Shown here: piece after piece, positions 32,442 through 48,814 of the stretch
How positions within the stretch are numbered: the first letter of the stretch is position 1
Layout: every line of letters begins with the position of its first letter
Assembly: GCF_038396765.1 (NCBI RefSeq)
Contig: NZ_CP150096.1
Coordinates: forward strand, 6,369,001 to 6,433,000
DNA: 64,000 nucleotides
From: Chitinophaga caseinilytica
Lineage (GTDB): Bacteria; Bacteroidota; Bacteroidia; Chitinophagales; Chitinophagaceae
Direction of reading: 5' to 3'
The notes under the pieces: model-generated
What the model saw: only the letters and a program-made list of their open reading frames with translations
The model's database searches: none
What the model was told of the DNA's origin: nothing
Translations under genes and position numbers: made by a program

Positions 32442-33119
32442 ATGTCCGACTTCCACTCATATCAAAACCCGGCATTAACGACCGACCTCGTGGTTTTCGG
32501 CTACCAGGGCAAAACGTTGTCGGTTTTATTGTTGAACCGGAAATCGGAACCGTTTAAAAACGGCTGGACGTTGCCCGGCGCGTTCGTAGGCCTGCAGGAA
32601 ACCTTTTCAGAAGCGTGCCGCCGCATTCTGGCCAGCAAGCTCGGTCTGCCGTCCATTTACCTCGAGCAATTATATACGTTCGACGGGCCGCAACGCGATC
32701 CCCGGGGCCGCGTAGTGTCTGTCGCCTATTTCGCGCTCGTAAGCCAGGGCAAACTGAATGCCGTGGCCGGCCAGATGGCCAACGACGTGCGCTGGTTCCC
32801 CGTCAACGAAATCCCTGAACTGGGGTTCGACCATCGCTTGATATTCGACACCGCGCTGGAGCGCCTACGCGCCAAGATCCGCTATCAGCCGGTAGGCTTC
32901 GAACTGCTCGACGAAAAGTTTACCATGCCCGAACTGCAGGACCTTTACGAAAGCATCCTCGGCTTCCCCATCGACCGCCGCAACTTCCGCCGCAAGCTAC
33001 TCGACGTGGGCTTCGTGCAACCGACGGGCGATAAAACCGAAGGCTTGCAGCATCGGCCGGCCGATTATTATACATTTAACAAACAGCTGCACCCACAGCA
33101 TTTTCATTTAAATCTGTAA
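32442..33119 (+). CDS. NrtR-like Nudix regulator of NAD metabolism
   Basis: 225 residues. The N-terminal Nudix domain has a degenerate box: GAFVGLQETFSEACRRILASKLGL keeps the helix but lacks the REUxEE catalytic glutamates, as in the non-hydrolytic NrtR/AraR regulators. The C-terminal part is a winged helix (LYESILGFPIDRRNFRRKLLDVGFV). NrtR proteins bind ADP-ribose-type ligands and repress NAD synthesis genes. The next gene is nadV, 2 bp on, and a palindrome precedes the gene. A sugar-responsive AraR-type role is the alternative. Confidence 0.85.
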   Translation: MSDFHSYQNPALTTDLVVFGYQGKTLSVLLLNRKSEPFKNGWTLPGAFVGLQETFSEACRRILASKLGLPSIYLEQLYTFDGPQRDPRGRVVSVAYFALVSQGKLNAVAGQMANDVRWFPVNEIPELGFDHRLIFDTALERLRAKIRYQPVGFELLDEKFTMPELQDLYESILGFPIDRRNFRRKLLDVGFVQPTGDKTEGLQHRPADYYTFNKQLHPQHFHLNL

Positions 33120-33121
33120 TT

Positions 33122-34636
33122 ATGAACATCGCTCCCATCCTCCTCAAAGATGGTTACAAAGTTGGCCACAAGTTCCAGTATCCCGAAGGCACGACCCTTG
33201 TTTACTCCAACCTCACGCCCCGCAAATCCCGCGATGCCGATATCCAGGAAGTCGTTTTCTTCGGCATGCAATATTTTATGGAGGAATATCTCATCCGCCA
33301 GTTCAACGAACACTTCTTCCGGCTGCCGAAAGCGCAGGTGTTGGAGATGTACGCGCGGCGGATGGACAATTATCTCGGTAAAGACAGCATTCCCTACCAG
33401 CACATCGCCGACCTGCACGACCTCGGATATCTGCCGTTGGAAATCAAAGCTTTGCCGGAAGGGACGCTCGTACCGATGCGCGTTCCTTTCTTTACCATCC
33501 GCAATACGAAACCGGAATTTTTCTGGCTCACCAATATGCTGGAAACGCTCCTGAGCGCCATTCTATGGAAGCCTTCCACATCGGCCACCACGGCGTTCCG
33601 CTACCTCAAAACCTTCACCCGCTTCGCCCGGGAAACGGTGGGGGAAGACATGGGATTCGTTCCCTGGCAGGGCCACGATTTCTCTTTCCGCGGCATGAGC
33701 GGTGTGGAAGATGCCCTGCTCAGCGGCGCCGGCCACCTGTTGAGCTTCGCCGGAACGGATACCATCCCCGCGATCGATTTCCTGGAGCAATACTACGGTG
33801 CCGATAGTACGAAAGAATTGGTGGGCGGCTCCGTTCCCGCTACGGAACACAGTGTGATGTGCATGGGAACGGAGGACGCGGAGATCGAAACCTTCGAAAG
33901 GCTCATCACGACAGTATACCCTGCCGGCATCGTTTCCATCGTGAGCGATACCTGGGATTTCTGGCAGGTGATCACCGACTTCCTCCCCAGGCTGAAAGAT
34001 AAAATCCTGGCGCGCGACGGCAAAGTGGTGATCCGCCCCGACAGCGGCGATCCGGTAAAAATCATCGCCGGCGACCCGGACGCTCCTGCCGGCACGCCCG
34101 AGCACAAAGGCGCGATCGAATGCATGTGGGAGATTTTCGGTGGAACGATCACGCCGCAGGGCTACAAACTCCTCGACGGGCATATCGGCCTCATTTACGG
34201 CGACAGTATTACCACCGAACGCCAGGAAGCCATCCTCGGTCAGCTGAAAGCCAAAGGGTTCGCCAGCTACAACGTGGTGCTGGGTATCGGCAGCTTCACT
34301 TACGAATACGTTACGCGGGACACGTTCGGCTTCGCGATGAAAGCCACTTACGGCGAAATCAACGGCGTTGGCCGCAGCATTTTCAAAGCCCCGAAAACCG
34401 ACGACGGCACCAAAAATTCCGCCAAAGGCCTGCTGCAGGTGTTCACCGACCCCGCTACCGGGAAACTCGCCCTGAAAGACGAGTGCACCTGGGACGAGGA
34501 GGCGCAGGGTGAACTGCAGACAGTGTTCCGCGACGGTAAAATCACCCAATCCCATACCCTCGCCGACATCCGCGCCCGCATCCAGGCCAGCCTGGAAAAA
34601 GAACTCGCGGCCAGCGACGCGGCCGTGCTGGCTTAA
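33122..34636 (+). CDS. nadV: Nicotinamide phosphoribosyltransferase
   Basis: 504 residues of the NAMPT family: LKDGYKVGHKFQYPEGTTLVYSN, GMQYFMEEYLI, HDFSFRGMSGVEDA, ATEHSVMCMG, SDTWDFWQVI, KVVIRPDSGDPVKIIAGD and LIYGDSITTER. It condenses nicotinamide with PRPP to NMN, the salvage route to NAD. Motif IRPDSGDP binds the ribose phosphate. It is in an operon with its presumed regulator upstream and prs, which makes the PRPP co-substrate, downstream. Confidence 0.95.
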   Translation: MNIAPILLKDGYKVGHKFQYPEGTTLVYSNLTPRKSRDADIQEVVFFGMQYFMEEYLIRQFNEHFFRLPKAQVLEMYARRMDNYLGKDSIPYQHIADLHDLGYLPLEIKALPEGTLVPMRVPFFTIRNTKPEFFWLTNMLETLLSAILWKPSTSATTAFRYLKTFTRFARETVGEDMGFVPWQGHDFSFRGMSGVEDALLSGAGHLLSFAGTDTIPAIDFLEQYYGADSTKELVGGSVPATEHSVMCMGTEDAEIETFERLITTVYPAGIVSIVSDTWDFWQVITDFLPRLKDKILARDGKVVIRPDSGDPVKIIAGDPDAPAGTPEHKGAIECMWEIFGGTITPQGYKLLDGHIGLIYGDSITTERQEAILGQLKAKGFASYNVVLGIGSFTYEYVTRDTFGFAMKATYGEINGVGRSIFKAPKTDDGTKNSAKGLLQVFTDPATGKLALKDECTWDEEAQGELQTVFRDGKITQSHTLADIRARIQASLEKELAASDAAVLA

Positions 34637-34647
34637 CCCGACACAAC

Positions 34648-35208
34648 ATGCAACACGATCCTTACAAACATATCAGTAAATTTCTCAGTCTCGTTCTCCG
34701 TCACCAACCCGAAAAAATCGGCCTCCGGCTCGATGTGCAGGGTTGGGCGGAGATCGGGGAACTGATCGAAAAATCCGCCGCTTCGGGCATGCGCTTCACC
34801 CGGGAAGAGCTCCTGGAAACCGTGCGCACCAACGACAAGCAGCGGTTTGCCCTTAACCCTGGCCAGACGGCCATCCGCGCTTCGCAAGGGCATTCGGTAG
34901 CGGTGGAACTGGCGCTTCCGGTCATGACGCCGCCCGAAACGCTTTATCACGGCACCGTGGAGAAGTTTCTCGAAAGCATCCGCAGTGGTGGATTGCAGAA
35001 GATGAAACGGCAACACGTGCACCTCAGCGCAAACCTCCAGACCGCCGGCCAGGTGGGCGCCCGCAGGGGGAAACCCGTGATCCTGAAGGTCCGCAGCGGC
35101 GATATGCACCGCCGGGGCCATATTTTCCACATCAGCGAAAACGGCGTCTGGCTCACCGATGCCGTTCCGCCCGAATTCCTCGAACCTTTTAACGACGCCA
35201 CATGCTGA
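34648..35208 (+). CDS. kptA: RNA 2'-phosphotransferase, Tpt1/KptA family
   Basis: 186 residues. ISKFLSLVLRHQPEKIGLRLDVQGWAEI is the N-terminal signature; then LYHGTVEKFLESIRSGGLQ, QHVHLSANLQTA and GHIFHISENGVWLTDAVPPEFL form the ADP-ribosyl-type fold. The enzyme moves an internal 2'-phosphate from RNA to NAD, giving ADP-ribose 1'',2''-cyclic phosphate and nicotinamide. Bacteria lack the matching tRNA ligase, so its role is uncertain; here it lies between nadV and prs, and the released nicotinamide is the NadV substrate. It overlaps prs by 7 bp. Confidence 0.92.
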   Translation: MQHDPYKHISKFLSLVLRHQPEKIGLRLDVQGWAEIGELIEKSAASGMRFTREELLETVRTNDKQRFALNPGQTAIRASQGHSVAVELALPVMTPPETLYHGTVEKFLESIRSGGLQKMKRQHVHLSANLQTAGQVGARRGKPVILKVRSGDMHRRGHIFHISENGVWLTDAVPPEFLEPFNDATC

Positions 35209-36044
35209 CGCTTCACCTCATCCATCCCGAAAAATCGGACATCCCGGTAGAAACGCTGCGCTTCCCCGACGGGCAGCCGCATCTGAAGATCGACACTTCC
35301 GCCATCGCCCTCATCGAGCGGCAAACACCGGTCCGCATCCTGACGAGGCTCAACGACGGGAACGATCTGCTCATGCTCCTCTTCGCGCAGCAAGCCCTTT
35401 CCCACCTCGAGTTCCGCGACGTCCGGGCAGATATCACTTACCTTACCGCTGCACGGATGGACCGTGTCATGCGCCCGGGGGAACCGTTTTCCCTGAAGGT
35501 GATCGCCGCGGTACTGAATGCCGCGCAGTTCCGGAAGGTGCGCATTTTCGACCCGCATTCCGAAGTGACCACCGCGCTCATCGACCGGGCTTATGCCGTG
35601 GAAAACCACCGGTTCATGCGCGATGTGCTGGAAGATTACAATACGCGCCGGCCCGGGGAACACATCGTGCTGGTGTCGCCGGACGGCGGTGCGCTGAAGA
35701 AAATCTATTCGCTCGCCAAGTTCATCGGCACTACCGACGTGGTGGAATGCATGAAAACCCGCGACGTGAAAACCGGTGCGTTGTCTGGCTTCAAAACCAG
35801 TGCGGAAGACCTTTCCGGAAAAACCTGCATCATCGCCGATGATATTTGCGACGGCGGCGGCACATTTGCCGGAACGGCGAAAGTATTGAAAGATAAAGGC
35901 GCCGCGCGCGTGGTGCTGGCCGTGAGCCACGGTATTTTCAGCAAGGGAACTTCCATCGAATACGTAGACGAAATCTATACGACGGATTCTTTCCGCGAAG
36001 TGCCGGACGTTCATTGCTTTGCCGCGGAGCGATATTTCCATTAA
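35202..36044 (+). CDS. prs: Ribose-phosphate pyrophosphokinase (PRPP synthetase) paralogue
   Basis: 280 residues, shorter than the usual 310-315. It has RILTRLNDGNDLLMLLFAQQAL, the YLTAARMDRVM loop, VRIFDPHSEVTTALID, and the PRPP-binding CIIADDICDGGGTF. It makes PRPP from ribose 5-phosphate and ATP. Its position after nadV and kptA indicates a dedicated supply of PRPP for NAD salvage, like the nadV-prs pairs of some bacteria and phages; the housekeeping prs should be elsewhere. Confidence 0.88.
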   Translation: MLTLHLIHPEKSDIPVETLRFPDGQPHLKIDTSAIALIERQTPVRILTRLNDGNDLLMLLFAQQALSHLEFRDVRADITYLTAARMDRVMRPGEPFSLKVIAAVLNAAQFRKVRIFDPHSEVTTALIDRAYAVENHRFMRDVLEDYNTRRPGEHIVLVSPDGGALKKIYSLAKFIGTTDVVECMKTRDVKTGALSGFKTSAEDLSGKTCIIADDICDGGGTFAGTAKVLKDKGAARVVLAVSHGIFSKGTSIEYVDEIYTTDSFREVPDVHCFAAERYFH

Positions 36045-36863: not shown

Positions 36864-37031
36864 ATGAAATTGCCAAAAGTCCTGATCGGCGCCATCATCG
36901 CCGGCATCGCCATCCACACCCTGCCTTCCTGCTCCAAAGACAATGACGTAACGCCCAAAGACAAAAAGGAAGCGGAAAAGAAGAAACAGGAAAACAACAA
37001 CTTCCCCTGTCCTGCCTGCGGCATGGGCTGA
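36864..37031 (+). CDS. Small lipoprotein-like MNIO substrate peptide ending CPACGMG
   Basis: 55 residues. An N-terminal signal (MKLPKVLIGAIIAGIAIHTLPSC) with a lipobox-like LPSC at Cys23, a highly charged linker (KDNDVTPKDKKEAEKKKQ) and a C-terminal FPCPACGMG with two cysteines (49 and 52). It lies 24 bp upstream of the DUF692/MNIO oxidase gene. Short exported precursors with Cys motifs next to MNIO genes are typical RiPP substrates (methanobactin, chryseobasin and bufferin types); this looks most like the chryseobasin-related group. Modification of the two Cys is inference. Confidence 0.78.
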   Translation: MKLPKVLIGAIIAGIAIHTLPSCSKDNDVTPKDKKEAEKKKQENNNFPCPACGMG

Positions 37032-37055
37032 TCCTGACCATCCAAACCGAATTAC

Positions 37056-38183
37056 TTGCCCCGTTTACTATCTACCGTTGCCTGCAACCTGGACCCCCAA
37101 TTGCTGGGAGCCTGCCTGCCGCTGTTCGAGTCTGGCGAAGCCGACGCCATCGAGTGGAGCTTCGACGCGCTATACCGCCTCAACGAATTGCCCGAATGGT
37201 TTCATGGCTTGATCGGCGCTTTCAGTGAAGGCGACCGCCTCATCGGCCACGGCATTTTCTTTTCGTTGTTTTCCGGGAAATGGCACCCGGAGCAGCAAGC
37301 CTGGCTAAAGGAGCTCGCTTCCATCTGCGACCGCTACCGGTTCGATCACATTACCGAGCATTTCGGGTTCATGACCGGCCAGGATTTCCATCACGGCGCG
37401 CCGCTCAATATTCCGTATACCGCGGCAACGTTACGCATCGGGCAAGACCGGTTGCAACGGATCGCGGAGGCTTGCGGGCGGCCGGTGGGCCTCGAAAATC
37501 TCGCGTTCTCGTATTCGGCCGATGAAGTGCGCCGGCACGGGGATTTCCTCGACAAACTGCTGGCCCCGGTCAATGGATTTCTCATCCTCGACCTGCACAA
37601 CGTGTACTGCCAGGTAGAAAATTTCGATATCGATTTCGATACCCTCGCCGCCATGTACCCTTTGCACCGCGTCCGGGAAATCCATATTTCCGGCGGCAGC
37701 TGGGAACCTTCGGCAGACGGCTCCCATAACATCCGCCGCGATACCCACGACGACGCCGTTCCCGAAAAAGTTTTCCAGTACCTCGAACGCATCATCCCCC
37801 AATGCCCGCATCTCCGGTATGTAGTGATGGAACAACTCGGCGCCGGATTGCAGACGGAAGCCTGTAAATCCGCCTTCCGCGCAGATTTCAGGCGGATGGC
37901 AGACATCGCCGGGACGTGGAACAATCCTGCGGCCGACGAATCCATCCACCCCTTCACCCCGCCCGCTTCCCGCCTGCAAAGCGTTCCTGCCGAAGACCTG
38001 GCCCTTCACCGGCAGCAAACCGAACTGTCTTCTATTCTCGAAAACGCCGCTTCGCTGGAAGATGCGCTCCGTTCGCTGAAAGCCTCGTCGCTCGCGCAAA
38101 CCGACTGGCAGGTAGAGCAATGGTCGCCGTACATGGTGGAAACCGCGATGCGCATCGCCCGGAAGTGGATGAAAAAAGATTAG
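37056..38183 (+). CDS. DUF692/MNIO family multinuclear iron oxidase
   Basis: 375 residues starting at TTG 37056; no in-frame ATG exists after the stop at 37035, and family N-termini read PRLLSTxACNLD. TIM-barrel metal ligands expected for MNIO enzymes are present: GHGIFFS (His65), ITEHFGF (Glu101-His102), GLENLAF (Glu147-Asn148), LDLHNVY (Asp179, Asn182), REIHISGG (His210) and RDTHDD (Asp229, His231). These enzymes use mixed-valent iron and oxygen to remodel Cys in peptides. The likely substrate is the CPACGMG peptide upstream. The C-terminal about 85 residues extend beyond the usual about 290-residue core, and no separate partner gene is present. Confidence 0.88.
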   Translation: MPRLLSTVACNLDPQLLGACLPLFESGEADAIEWSFDALYRLNELPEWFHGLIGAFSEGDRLIGHGIFFSLFSGKWHPEQQAWLKELASICDRYRFDHITEHFGFMTGQDFHHGAPLNIPYTAATLRIGQDRLQRIAEACGRPVGLENLAFSYSADEVRRHGDFLDKLLAPVNGFLILDLHNVYCQVENFDIDFDTLAAMYPLHRVREIHISGGSWEPSADGSHNIRRDTHDDAVPEKVFQYLERIIPQCPHLRYVVMEQLGAGLQTEACKSAFRADFRRMADIAGTWNNPAADESIHPFTPPASRLQSVPAEDLALHRQQTELSSILENAASLEDALRSLKASSLAQTDWQVEQWSPYMVETAMRIARKWMKKD

Positions 38184-38214: not shown

Positions 38215-38246
38215 AAAAAGCCTCCCGGCAGTGCGGGAGGCTTTTT
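38215..38246. terminator. Bidirectional terminator
   Basis: AAAAAGCCTCCCG (38215-38227) pairs with CGGGAGGCTTTTT (38234-38246). It serves the MNIO operon and the convergent TIG-domain gene. Confidence 0.9.
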
Positions 38247-39918: not shown

Positions 39919-40734
39919 TTACCGGTTCAATTCGGCCATCGCCAATGTACCGACGGCGAGGTCTGTAGCGGCATCGGCCTCCAAATTATCTTCGATGAAC
40001 CACACGGCCGAAAGCGCCGCCCAGGCCACGATCCATTCCAGCAAACGCCGCCGTTCGATACCGGTTTCGCTGCAAACGGTTTGCAGCCGCTGCTGGAATG
40101 CTGCGGGCGCTGAAGCGATGGACAGGTCTGGGTTGCAGAAGATGTTAGCGAAATCGAAGGCACGGTCGCCATGGAGTTTTTTGGGATCGATGGCGAGCCA
40201 GCCTTTTCCTTCGAAATCCAGCACGTTTTCGTGATGCAGGTCCCCATGCAGGACGCATTTTTCGACCTCCTCCGTCACCAGGCGGCGCGCGAGCTCCAGG
40301 CCGTGGGCAATACTACCTCCATATTTATGCCCATGCGCAAACAAATCCGCGAACCAACGGTCCATCGTGATCATCCCTTCCGGCGGCGGTTTGGGAACGG
40401 CATGCAACTGAAGCGCCGTGGCACAGAGGATTTTGGTGGCGGCATCGTCTGCCCCGTTCATAGCCATGGTTTTCAGGTTTCGCGGGCCGGTGGCACGCTC
40501 CATCAGCAAAGCTTCTCCGTTATGCGCCAGCACTTTTGCGGCGCCATGCCCGTTCCACCATACCATAATTTCGTTCCCGAGCTTCTCGTCCTTTTCCACC
40601 GCCACCTTCAACATGGCGGGAAGGCCTTCGTGCAATACCGGCAGCAATCGGCTGCTGTGCGTGATGACCGGTTGCCCGTCTTGCTGCAGTTGCCATTGGT
40701 CCTGATAATATTGAAAATCCATATCGCGATTCAT
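39919..40734 (-). CDS. Aminoglycoside/hydroxyurea phosphotransferase-like kinase, APH(6) family
   Basis: 271 residues with the kinase-like fold: AMLKVAVEKDEKLGNEIMVWWNG (nucleotide lysine), EALLMERATGPRNLKTMA, the Brenner motif CVLHGDLHHENVL and the metal site WLAIDPKKLHGDRAFDFAN. This matches the streptomycin 6-phosphotransferase/hydroxyurea kinase family. Chromosomal members may not confer clinical resistance. It is monocistronic, with a terminator after it, and divergent from the DUF4265 gene. Confidence 0.88.
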   Translation of the reverse strand: MNRDMDFQYYQDQWQLQQDGQPVITHSSRLLPVLHEGLPAMLKVAVEKDEKLGNEIMVWWNGHGAAKVLAHNGEALLMERATGPRNLKTMAMNGADDAATKILCATALQLHAVPKPPPEGMITMDRWFADLFAHGHKYGGSIAHGLELARRLVTEEVEKCVLHGDLHHENVLDFEGKGWLAIDPKKLHGDRAFDFANIFCNPDLSIASAPAAFQQRLQTVCSETGIERRRLLEWIVAWAALSAVWFIEDNLEADAATDLAVGTLAMAELNR

Positions 40735-47407: not shown

Positions 47408-48814
47408 CTACACCGCAGGCCTGATGGCGCGGCCCCTGGCCTGGACCACTTCCCGGCGCTGCATTTCCAACTGTTCTGCCAGTTGGTTGAGGTCGGTCCG
47501 TTTGCTCATGTCTATCGGGGAATTCTTCCTCACCCGTTTGTATGCATAAAAACCGTTCATGAACATCGACATCAGGAATGCGCCCCATCGCAACGTCAAC
47601 GCCCCGCGAACGATCCTCCTGCATGCGTACCACGGTGAAAATGACTTTTTCCACAGGGCGCGGTGCGCGTTCAGCAGTTGCGCTTCCGATATCTTTTTCG
47701 GGATGAACGCTACGTTGTAGCCGTTGTAGAAATTCCAGTTCCTGTTTTCCAGGATGCGGCCTTCCTGTTGCAACGTGGAGTAGATGGGCGTTCCGCGAAA
47801 CGGGGTCATGATACTGAGGAACGGTACGTCGATACCGATTTCCATGAGCTGGTCGGCCATTTGCACGATGCTTTTTTCGTCGTCGTGATCGAACCCTGCG
47901 ATGAAACCTGCCATCACGGCGATCCCCCGCTTCCGGATAGCCTTCACTGCCACGCTGTACTGTTCGATCCGGTTTTGCCGTTTGTTCGCATCCGCCAGGC
48001 TTTCCACTCCGAAAGATTCGATCCCCAGGAATACCCCGATACAGCCGGAGGCCTTCATGAGGTCGAGCAGTTCGGGATCTTTGGCGATGTCCATGCTGGC
48101 CTGTGTGAGCCACCATTTTTTCAGCGGTATCATTTCACGGAGCAGTTCGCGGATGAATGGCCGGCGGATGGTAAGGTTATCATCCCAAAACCAGACGATT
48201 TTCCGCTGCCACCACCAGGGAAAGTGGTCGTAGGCCGCATCGCGCACCACGTCTGCCACCGGCCTGAGCCGGAAGCCGGGGTTCAGCGAGGGAACGGTGC
48301 AGAAGGAGCATGAAAAGGGACAGCCCCTCGTGGCCTGGATCACTTTTTTGATGAAGAAACGATTGGGCAGGAGGTCGTACCGCGGCGTGGGCAGCGATTG
48401 CATATCGCAGGGCGTGCCTTTGTAGATGGTTTTCATTTCTCCTTTTTCCAGGTCGGCGAGCATCGCGGGCCAGGCGCTTTCGGCTTCGCCGGTGACCACG
48501 GCGTCGAAATACCCGAGGGCTTCGTCGGCGCAATAGGTGACGTGCGGACCGCCGGCTACGACGACCTTCCCTCTTTTCCGGAATTCAGTGGCGAGTTGAT
48601 AGGCGGGGATGGCGAAGCCGCTGAAAAACGAGATGGCGATGAGGTCGGCATCGGAGTCTGGCGGGATGGGATCTACCTGTTGGTGAAATACGCGCACCGT
48701 ATGATGGGCGGGCGTAATGGCGGCGAGATGGATCCCTGTGATGGGCGGTACGAAATCGCGTTCGTGCCCGAATTCATAACGCTGGAGATAGGCGATGATG
48801 ATGTCTATTTTCAT
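47408..48814 (-). CDS. B12-binding-domain radical SAM protein
   Basis: 468 residues. The N-terminal about 130 residues form a cobalamin-type Rossmann domain (IDIIIAYLQRYEFGHERDF, DLIAISFFSGFAIPAYQLATEF, VVAGGPHVTYCADEAL). The radical SAM core has the cluster motif ATRGCPFSCSFCTVPS (CxxxCxxC), IVWFWDDNLTIRRPF and VMAGFIAGFDHDDEKSI. It resembles HpnP/BchE-like methylases or cyclases, but the product is unknown. A minus-strand -7 element lies at 48852-48859. Confidence 0.9.
   Translation of the reverse strand: MKIDIIIAYLQRYEFGHERDFVPPITGIHLAAITPAHHTVRVFHQQVDPIPPDSDADLIAISFFSGFAIPAYQLATEFRKRGKVVVAGGPHVTYCADEALGYFDAVVTGEAESAWPAMLADLEKGEMKTIYKGTPCDMQSLPTPRYDLLPNRFFIKKVIQATRGCPFSCSFCTVPSLNPGFRLRPVADVVRDAAYDHFPWWWQRKIVWFWDDNLTIRRPFIRELLREMIPLKKWWLTQASMDIAKDPELLDLMKASGCIGVFLGIESFGVESLADANKRQNRIEQYSVAVKAIRKRGIAVMAGFIAGFDHDDEKSIVQMADQLMEIGIDVPFLSIMTPFRGTPIYSTLQQEGRILENRNWNFYNGYNVAFIPKKISEAQLLNAHRALWKKSFSPWYACRRIVRGALTLRWGAFLMSMFMNGFYAYKRVRKNSPIDMSKRTDLNQLAEQLEMQRREVVQARGRAIRPAV

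Follow-up and report, generated by a model that had tools for sequence, protein, structure and literature searches.

A Chitinophaga gene pair that very probably encodes a lipid-anchored MNIO product carries an unusually conserved signal peptide

Lipid-anchored products of MNIO enzymes, named DAG-RiPPs, were described in a bioRxiv preprint of November 2025 (PMC12636315; like the other sources below, available in excerpts and cited on that basis). According to these excerpts, DybH of Dyadobacter crusticola turns the CPACGMG motif of DybA into a –4 Da product, for which NMR supports a macrocycle and a hydantoin and which keeps one free thiol, no partner protein being involved; ChsA/ChsH of Chitinophaga sancti and HymA/HymH gave –4 Da products too, and the myxobacterial homologue ArlAH yielded both –4 Da and +10 Da products. 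When made in E. coli, DybA was found to carry a triacylated lipobox cysteine, the DybA product had no absorbance feature, and the authors state that the function of DAG-RiPPs is unknown (PMC12636315). Among the papers searched, CPACGMG peptides and DAG-RiPPs come up in this preprint, in PMC10214503 and the earlier preprint version of it (PMC9934569), and in a review (PMC11002830). A lipid-anchored MNIO product, which the original prediction had regarded as a new variation, is thus already on record, and NCBIfam holds a curated model of the peptide; raw sequence alone was enough to recover the class of this late-2025 preprint.

The gene pair analysed here shares with DybA/DybH and ChsA/ChsH a C-terminal CPACGMG, a lipobox cysteine and a partner-free MNIO of the ChrH subfamily with a C-terminal helical domain, and ChsA/ChsH come from the same genus, Chitinophaga; it belongs to another species and differs in sequence. 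The chryseobasin pair ChrA/ChrH of Chryseobacterium also combines a CPACGMG core with an enzyme of the ChrH subfamily, but ChrA is longer, has a signal of the signal peptidase I type and undergoes S-methylation (+10 Da), and its cluster contains ChrI, ChrE and ChrP (PMC10214503, excerpts), whose families (DUF1772, ribulose phosphate epimerase and M42 peptidase, respectively) were absent among the 23 ORFs flanking our pair. Bufferins and oxazolins (BufABC, HvfABC; PMC12452194, excerpts) are likewise MNIO-modified, have a signal peptide and are in some cases predicted to be lipidated, but they involve DUF2063-type or related partners, other cysteine motifs, another chemistry and a link to copper. 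Neither an EGKCG or DUF2282-type precursor nor a DUF2063-type partner occurs at our locus (precursor and 23 flanking ORFs), and no other MNIO-partner Pfam family was found among the flanking ORFs. What is new here is the conservation of the signal peptide; the pair is otherwise an intact, ordinary member of a recently described class.

Within the window, i.e. the whole stretch of 64,000 nucleotides analysed, the pair and its parts map as follows:

36864..37031, + strand: precursor ORF, stop codon included, ChrA-related/DybA-type, 55 aa (NCBIfam NF050125 and orthologues upstream of ChrH)
36864..36929, + strand: signal peptide, residues 1–22, MKLPKVLIGAIIAGIAIHTLPS, unusually conserved (sequence, orthologue comparison)
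36921..36932, + strand: lipobox LPSC, residues 20–23, with Cys23 as predicted lipidation site (sequence and orthologues)
36933..37007, + strand: charged linker beginning S-K-D-N-D, resembling the Bacteroidota lipoprotein export signal (comparison with PMC5080379, excerpts)
37008..37028, + strand: core motif CPACGMG, predicted MNIO reaction site (motif surveys; modified site in DybA, PMC12636315, excerpts)
37056..38183, + strand: ChrH/DybH-type MNIO (DUF692), 375 aa, TTG start (PF05114, NF050165, AlphaFold2 model)
37992..38180, + strand: C-terminal helical domain of the MNIO, helices 315–330, 334–343 and 358–372, the extra domain of the ChrH subfamily (AlphaFold2 model)
38220..38246, + strand: terminator-like hairpin and T run, preceded by an A run, between the operon and a converging gene (read from sequence)

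The precursor ORF translates to MKLPKVLIGAIIAGIAIHTLPSCSKDNDVTPKDKKEAEKKKQENNNFPCPACGMG (55 aa) and runs from an n-region and hydrophobic core through the LPSC lipobox and a charged linker to the terminal CPACGMG, bearing out the predicted 55-residue peptide with a lipobox-like signal, charged linker and CPACGMG end. It matched NF050125 ('chryseobasin-related MNIO class RiPP peptide') with 87.2 bits over the full profile (1–56 of 56; cut-off 40), and the chryseobasin ChrA model NF050124 weakly, with 15.4 bits under a cut-off of 50. The closest of six homologues found, from Chitinophaga rhizosphaerae, is 93% identical and is annotated at NCBI as a 'chryseobasin-related MNIO class RiPP peptide'. 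The residue preceding the lipobox cysteine was serine in 41 and alanine in one of the 42 precursors of our genus set (79 genomes of the window's GTDB genus; the named relatives are Chitinophaga). For the LysC fragment QENNNFPCPACGMG, the computed [M+H]+ is 1481.56, or 1477.53 after a shift of –4.03 Da.

The MNIO ORF begins 24 bases past the precursor stop, and an identical database protein (P0001) also has 375 aa. The enzyme scored 104.3 bits against Pfam PF05114 (MbnB_TglH_ChrH; cut-off 25) and 377.9 bits against NF050165 (MNIO_ChrH), i.e. under the 600-bit equivalog cut-off, as did three other non-Chryseobacterium enzymes (370.8, 387.3 and 373.6 bits); with the BufB and HvfB models it reached 89.4 bits (cut-off 310) and 72.4 bits (cut-off 360), respectively. 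These NCBIfam scores therefore place it within the ChrH subfamily, outside the ChrH equivalogs. Across 60 aligned homologues, picked from the best 120 of 2332 database matches, H65, H102, E147, D179, H181, H210, D229, H231 and E259 were invariant, among many other residues. We presume these nine to be the metal ligands, guided by partial alignments to TglH (8hci; from residue 119 onward) and to 3bww (residues 62–254, where Asn replaces H181), and on this reading the enzyme would retain all expected ligands, as had been proposed. The AlphaFold2 model (pLDDT 86.7, pTM 0.88) has alternating strands and helices up to residue 287, followed by three C-terminal helices (315–372); such a helical domain is described in excerpts of the preprint as a mark of the ChrH subfamily (PMC12636315). 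The enzyme is 96% identical to the C. rhizosphaerae protein; within the genus, identity was 78–96% in four genomes, 73–86% in the larger pieces of a fifth, and 59–66% for the main matches in the remaining genomes.

Given the full-length NF050125 match, the lipobox, the ChrH-subfamily MNIO with its C-terminal domain, and a strict gene linkage (see below), this pair from a Chitinophaga species is very probably a minimal two-gene operon for a DybA/DybH-type DAG-RiPP, a RiPP-lipoprotein hybrid. The idea that the MNIO modifies cysteines of a future lipoprotein gains support from these family matches and from homology to the tested relatives (PMC12636315, excerpts), on which others observed the chemistry and lipidation that we infer by analogy for the window pair. 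S-methylation to a +10 Da chryseobasin-like product, instead of the –4 Da product, would suit an enzyme of the same MNIO subfamily, and ArlAH made both (PMC12636315, excerpts); we consider it very unlikely here, as the enzyme lies under the ChrH equivalog cut-off, the precursor, like those of the unmethylated group, has a third cysteine in its lipobox, and both ChsA/ChsH, from C. sancti, and HymA/HymH gave –4 Da.

Linkage and distribution were surveyed in the genus set, where 61 of 79 genomes had an enzyme match at E ≤ 0.001. In 39 of the 79 the match was strong and ChrH-type (best E below 1e-90); the other 22 had weak matches (best E ~1e-13 to 1e-6, ~20–29% identity). A precursor lay upstream of the enzyme start in all 39 genomes with a strong match, so the small gene is conserved beside the enzyme, and the second refutation test named in the original prediction did not go against it. 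The 39 loci held 42 precursors, three loci having two each, and the nearest one was 8–47 bases from the enzyme start in 36 loci. In the remaining three (L083, L093 and L094), an unusually long gap of 202–356 bases separated the precursor stop from the aligned enzyme start.

The 42 precursors ended in CPACGMG (34), CPGCGMG (4), CIACGMG (2), CPACSMG (1) or CPFCGMG (1). A motif search starting from the exact pattern CPxCGMG-stop returned 39 sites in 36 of the 79 genomes, all at most 357 bases from a ChrH gene; CPACSMG or CIACGMG takes its place in the three ChrH carriers that lack it. Among 395 Bacteroidota genomes drawn evenly, five had CPxCGMG-stop, each with a ChrH match within ~60 bases, and the reversed-pattern control had no tabulated match in this sample. 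The pairing is not chance, and the proposed survey of C-terminal CPxCGMG peptides beside DUF692 genes thus found a ChrH match adjoining 39 of 39 genus sites and in five of five phylum-sample genomes. A sixth genome of the phylum sample (G145) had a ChrH-like match with no CPxCGMG nearby; this match lies near a contig end and covers part of the profile. Since excerpts of the preprint report CPACGMG alone to be enough for modification (PMC12636315), we also searched for orphan genes ending in CPxCGMG, and found none with this exact C-terminal motif in the 79 genus and 395 phylum genomes. The looser CPxCGxG pattern gave 22 other matches in the genus, which lack the MG, six of them ending in TGG rather than a stop, against 15 matches, counted by eye, for its reversed control. 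In a sample of 59 genomes of relatives, NF050125 exceeded its cut-off in 14, every one of them from the genus, and fell short of it in two more.

Natural variation thereby recorded includes tandem precursors and the cores CPACSMG, CIACGMG and CPFCGMG, and within this single genus the system is present in 39 of the 79 genomes. The core of C. rhizosphaerae is CPACSMG, a serine replacing the glycine after the second cysteine; this variant (L097 and L117, C. rhizosphaerae) and CIACGMG (L081 and L092) stand beside ChrH-type enzymes. Three loci (L080, L084, L090) have tandem precursors, the second type being 61–65 aa long and beginning M[NH]L[SP]KSLLGA, with a similar signal peptide, a different linker and no K-(D/E) export-like motif; at L078, L082 and L085 this second type occurs alone. 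Among 21 loci from other genera, 20 had at least one such precursor (25 in total), the exception being L138, where the enzyme match starts at residue 139; the cores of Niastella caeni and of a Planctomyces MAG were CPACGQG and CPPCGQG, respectively.

At four ChrH loci of the genus (L094, L093, L083 and L095, in genomes G014, G086, G081 and G092), the enzyme match is split or in pieces although a precursor remains; the G092 assembly is of poor quality (65% complete). Interrupted enzymes of this kind at related loci, i.e. the pieces in G092, a separate C-terminal piece with a stop in G014, G086 and G081, and one stop flagged in the matches of G075, G095 and G030, together with the TTG start of the window enzyme, could mean that the locus is degenerate or silent and its peptide a small lipoprotein of the ordinary, unmodified kind. 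That reading is extremely improbable for the window, where the enzyme is intact at 375 aa with its invariant residues and the core motif is kept.

The signal peptide proved to be the unusual part of the DAG-RiPP precursor. As controls served the lipoproteins GldB and GldD, found in all 79 genus genomes, whose signal peptides were compared in the same genome pairs and binned by mature-protein identity. At 70–85% mature identity, signal-peptide identity was 88.9% for the precursor vs. 39.0% for GldB (precursor higher in 30 of 30 pairs), and 70.1% vs. 36.3% for GldD (precursor ahead in 54 of 58 pairs and level in the other 4). Below 70%, it was 70.1% vs. 31.5% for GldB (18 of 18 pairs) and 50.8% vs. 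31.5% for GldD (24 of 24). Above 85%, the contrast was lost with GldB (92.6% vs. 89.2%; precursor ahead in 7 of 18 pairs, level in 3 and behind in 8) and became smaller with GldD (91.1% vs. 66.8%; ahead in 27 of 38, level in 5 and behind in 6). These values cover 12 of the 39 carriers for GldB and 16 for GldD (best 30 loci per search, with 3 of 30 GldB loci left out), the genome pairs are non-independent, and two control proteins are few. Close relatives aside, the signal peptide of the precursor is far more conserved at comparable divergence than those of GldB and GldD.

A nucleotide-level cause was ruled out, as codon identity at residue-identical sites was the same in the signal peptide (1362/2941, 46.3%) and the enzyme (6068/13267, 45.7%); the constraint therefore acts on the protein. 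Nor did hydrophobicity differ, with a mean peak of 2.48 in the precursors and 2.48 in 14 of 18 control signal peptides (2.93 in the window peptide). The signature MK[IL]SKxxLxA recurs in other genera. In the form MK[ILV][SP]xx[LIV] it was present in 36 of 42 genus precursors, or in all 42 with residue 2 left free. Outside the genus it was present in 20 of 25 precursors; of the five misses, two are truncated N-terminally, one has no lipobox and two belong to a single Prosthecobacter MAG; the pattern was found in none of 14 control signal peptides, and a similar one in none of 26 neighbouring lipoprotein-like ORFs. K2, S4, K5, L8, A10 and G14 were each common to 12–15 of 15 representatives across genera. 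Mean identity over 16 residues was 51% among these representatives, hand-picked with misses and near-duplicates omitted, a choice that favours the motif, vs. 16% among 16 control signal peptides; this contrast partly reflects common descent, the controls being unrelated proteins, and the comparison with GldB and GldD is the fair test.

Such strong constraint sits badly with the 'relaxed purifying selection' that the excerpts of the preprint argue for on the N-terminus (PMC12636315), yet both can be true if the signal peptide has a purpose apart from catalysis, e.g. if it keeps the precursor cytosolic until modification is complete, directs it to a targeting route of its own, or acts as a peptide after its release. 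The preprint's own sequence logos may show the same conservation. The constraint suggests a second, leader-like role: a proposed element recognised by the MNIO, a targeting factor or a regulator, with export delayed or ordered so that the core is modified first. We advance only tentatively that the signal peptide has such a second job, either as a recognition element ordering export or as a bioactive peptide after release by LspA; if true, leader peptide and lipoprotein signal peptide would be combined in one. In E. coli, most, but not all, lipidated DybA was modified (PMC12636315, excerpts), which leaves room for a cytosol-holding device. How a cytosolic RiPP enzyme stays ahead of export thus becomes a testable question.

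By analogy with the tested relatives, the cytosolic MNIO would use an iron cluster and O2 for a four-electron oxidation of the C-terminal CPACGMG (–4 Da), presumably joining the two former cysteines in a macrocycle, forming a hydantoin and leaving a single free thiol, with neither S-methylation nor a partner protein. Going by the lipobox and by DybA, the modified peptide would then be exported by Sec, receive diacylglycerol on Cys23 through Lgt, lose its signal peptide to LspA and be acylated on the Cys23 amine by Lnt. The resulting 33-aa lipopeptide would reach the outer membrane, possibly its outer face, given the likeness of C-S-K-D-N-D to the Bacteroidota export signal. The surface-export signal that works best in Capnocytophaga reads C-x-K-(D/E)2-x (PMC5080379, excerpts). 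An x-K-(D/E) follows the lipobox cysteine in 35 of 42 precursors vs. 2 of 18 neighbouring lipoprotein-like families, the latter picked with a crude N-terminal filter; the strict C-x-K-(D/E)2 is found in 15 of 42, and the window sequence is an imperfect match to a signal defined in Capnocytophaga. Going by the export-like motif, it is plausible that the lipopeptide is displayed on the outer face, and we offer surface display as a conjecture.

As to the final role, the MNIO could instead make a copper-chelating group, the lipid-anchored peptide buffering copper at the membrane. Bufferins, oxazolins and methanobactin are copper-binding MNIO products (PMC12452194, PMC12636315, excerpts), and the product class retains one free thiol (PMC12636315). 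Even so, copper handling, suggested in the original prediction, seems unlikely and found no backing at the locus: no copper-related Pfam family occurs among the 23 flanking ORFs, no bufferin or oxazolin model was matched over its cut-off (BufB and HvfB falling far short, as given above), the precursor has a single core motif rather than EGKCG repeats, and, per the excerpts, the DybA product showed no absorbance feature and has a function stated as unknown (PMC12636315). We conjecture a surface-displayed or vesicle-borne effector or signalling ligand in preference to a copper buffer.

With the terminator-like hairpin behind it, the pair looks like a self-contained unit. All-against-all clustering of neighbouring ORFs (≥70 aa, crude ORF caller) in the 39 ChrH regions (~20 kb, some shorter at contig ends) gave no recurrent third gene, no other ORF family occurring in more than 8 of 39 regions, which matches the minimal, partner-free cluster described in excerpts of the preprint (PMC12636315). 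Upstream of the precursor, a similar block is present in close relatives (five-row alignment, with the G035 row unusable), and no firm promoter was assigned. A SusCD link was considered and rejected: families that we take, from their sequences, to be SusD-like and TonB-receptor-like lie downstream in 6 of 39 regions, and the window has a member of neither.

The 23 flanking ORFs, some of which overlap one another, span 27.1–48.8 kb of the window. Seven gave no Pfam match; the others matched KptA, PRPP-synthetase-like, GNAT, TIG/kelch lipoprotein, aminoglycoside/hydroxyurea kinase family, DUF4265, TetR-type regulator, ABC1 kinase, NrtR, NAMPT, UbiA, AlgH-like, DUF488, T9SS-sorted PKD protein, DUF2809 and radical SAM families. 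Positions 32442–36041 hold a probable NAD-salvage cluster, with an NrtR-type regulator, a nicotinamide phosphoribosyltransferase, a KptA/Tpt1 RNA 2′-phosphotransferase and a PRPP-synthetase-like protein in a row. Downstream of the MNIO, both on the minus strand, follow an aminoglycoside/hydroxyurea kinase family protein at ~1.7 kb (39919–40734; PF04655, 248.7 bits) and, at ~9 kb, a radical SAM protein with a sub-threshold B12-binding match (47408–48814).
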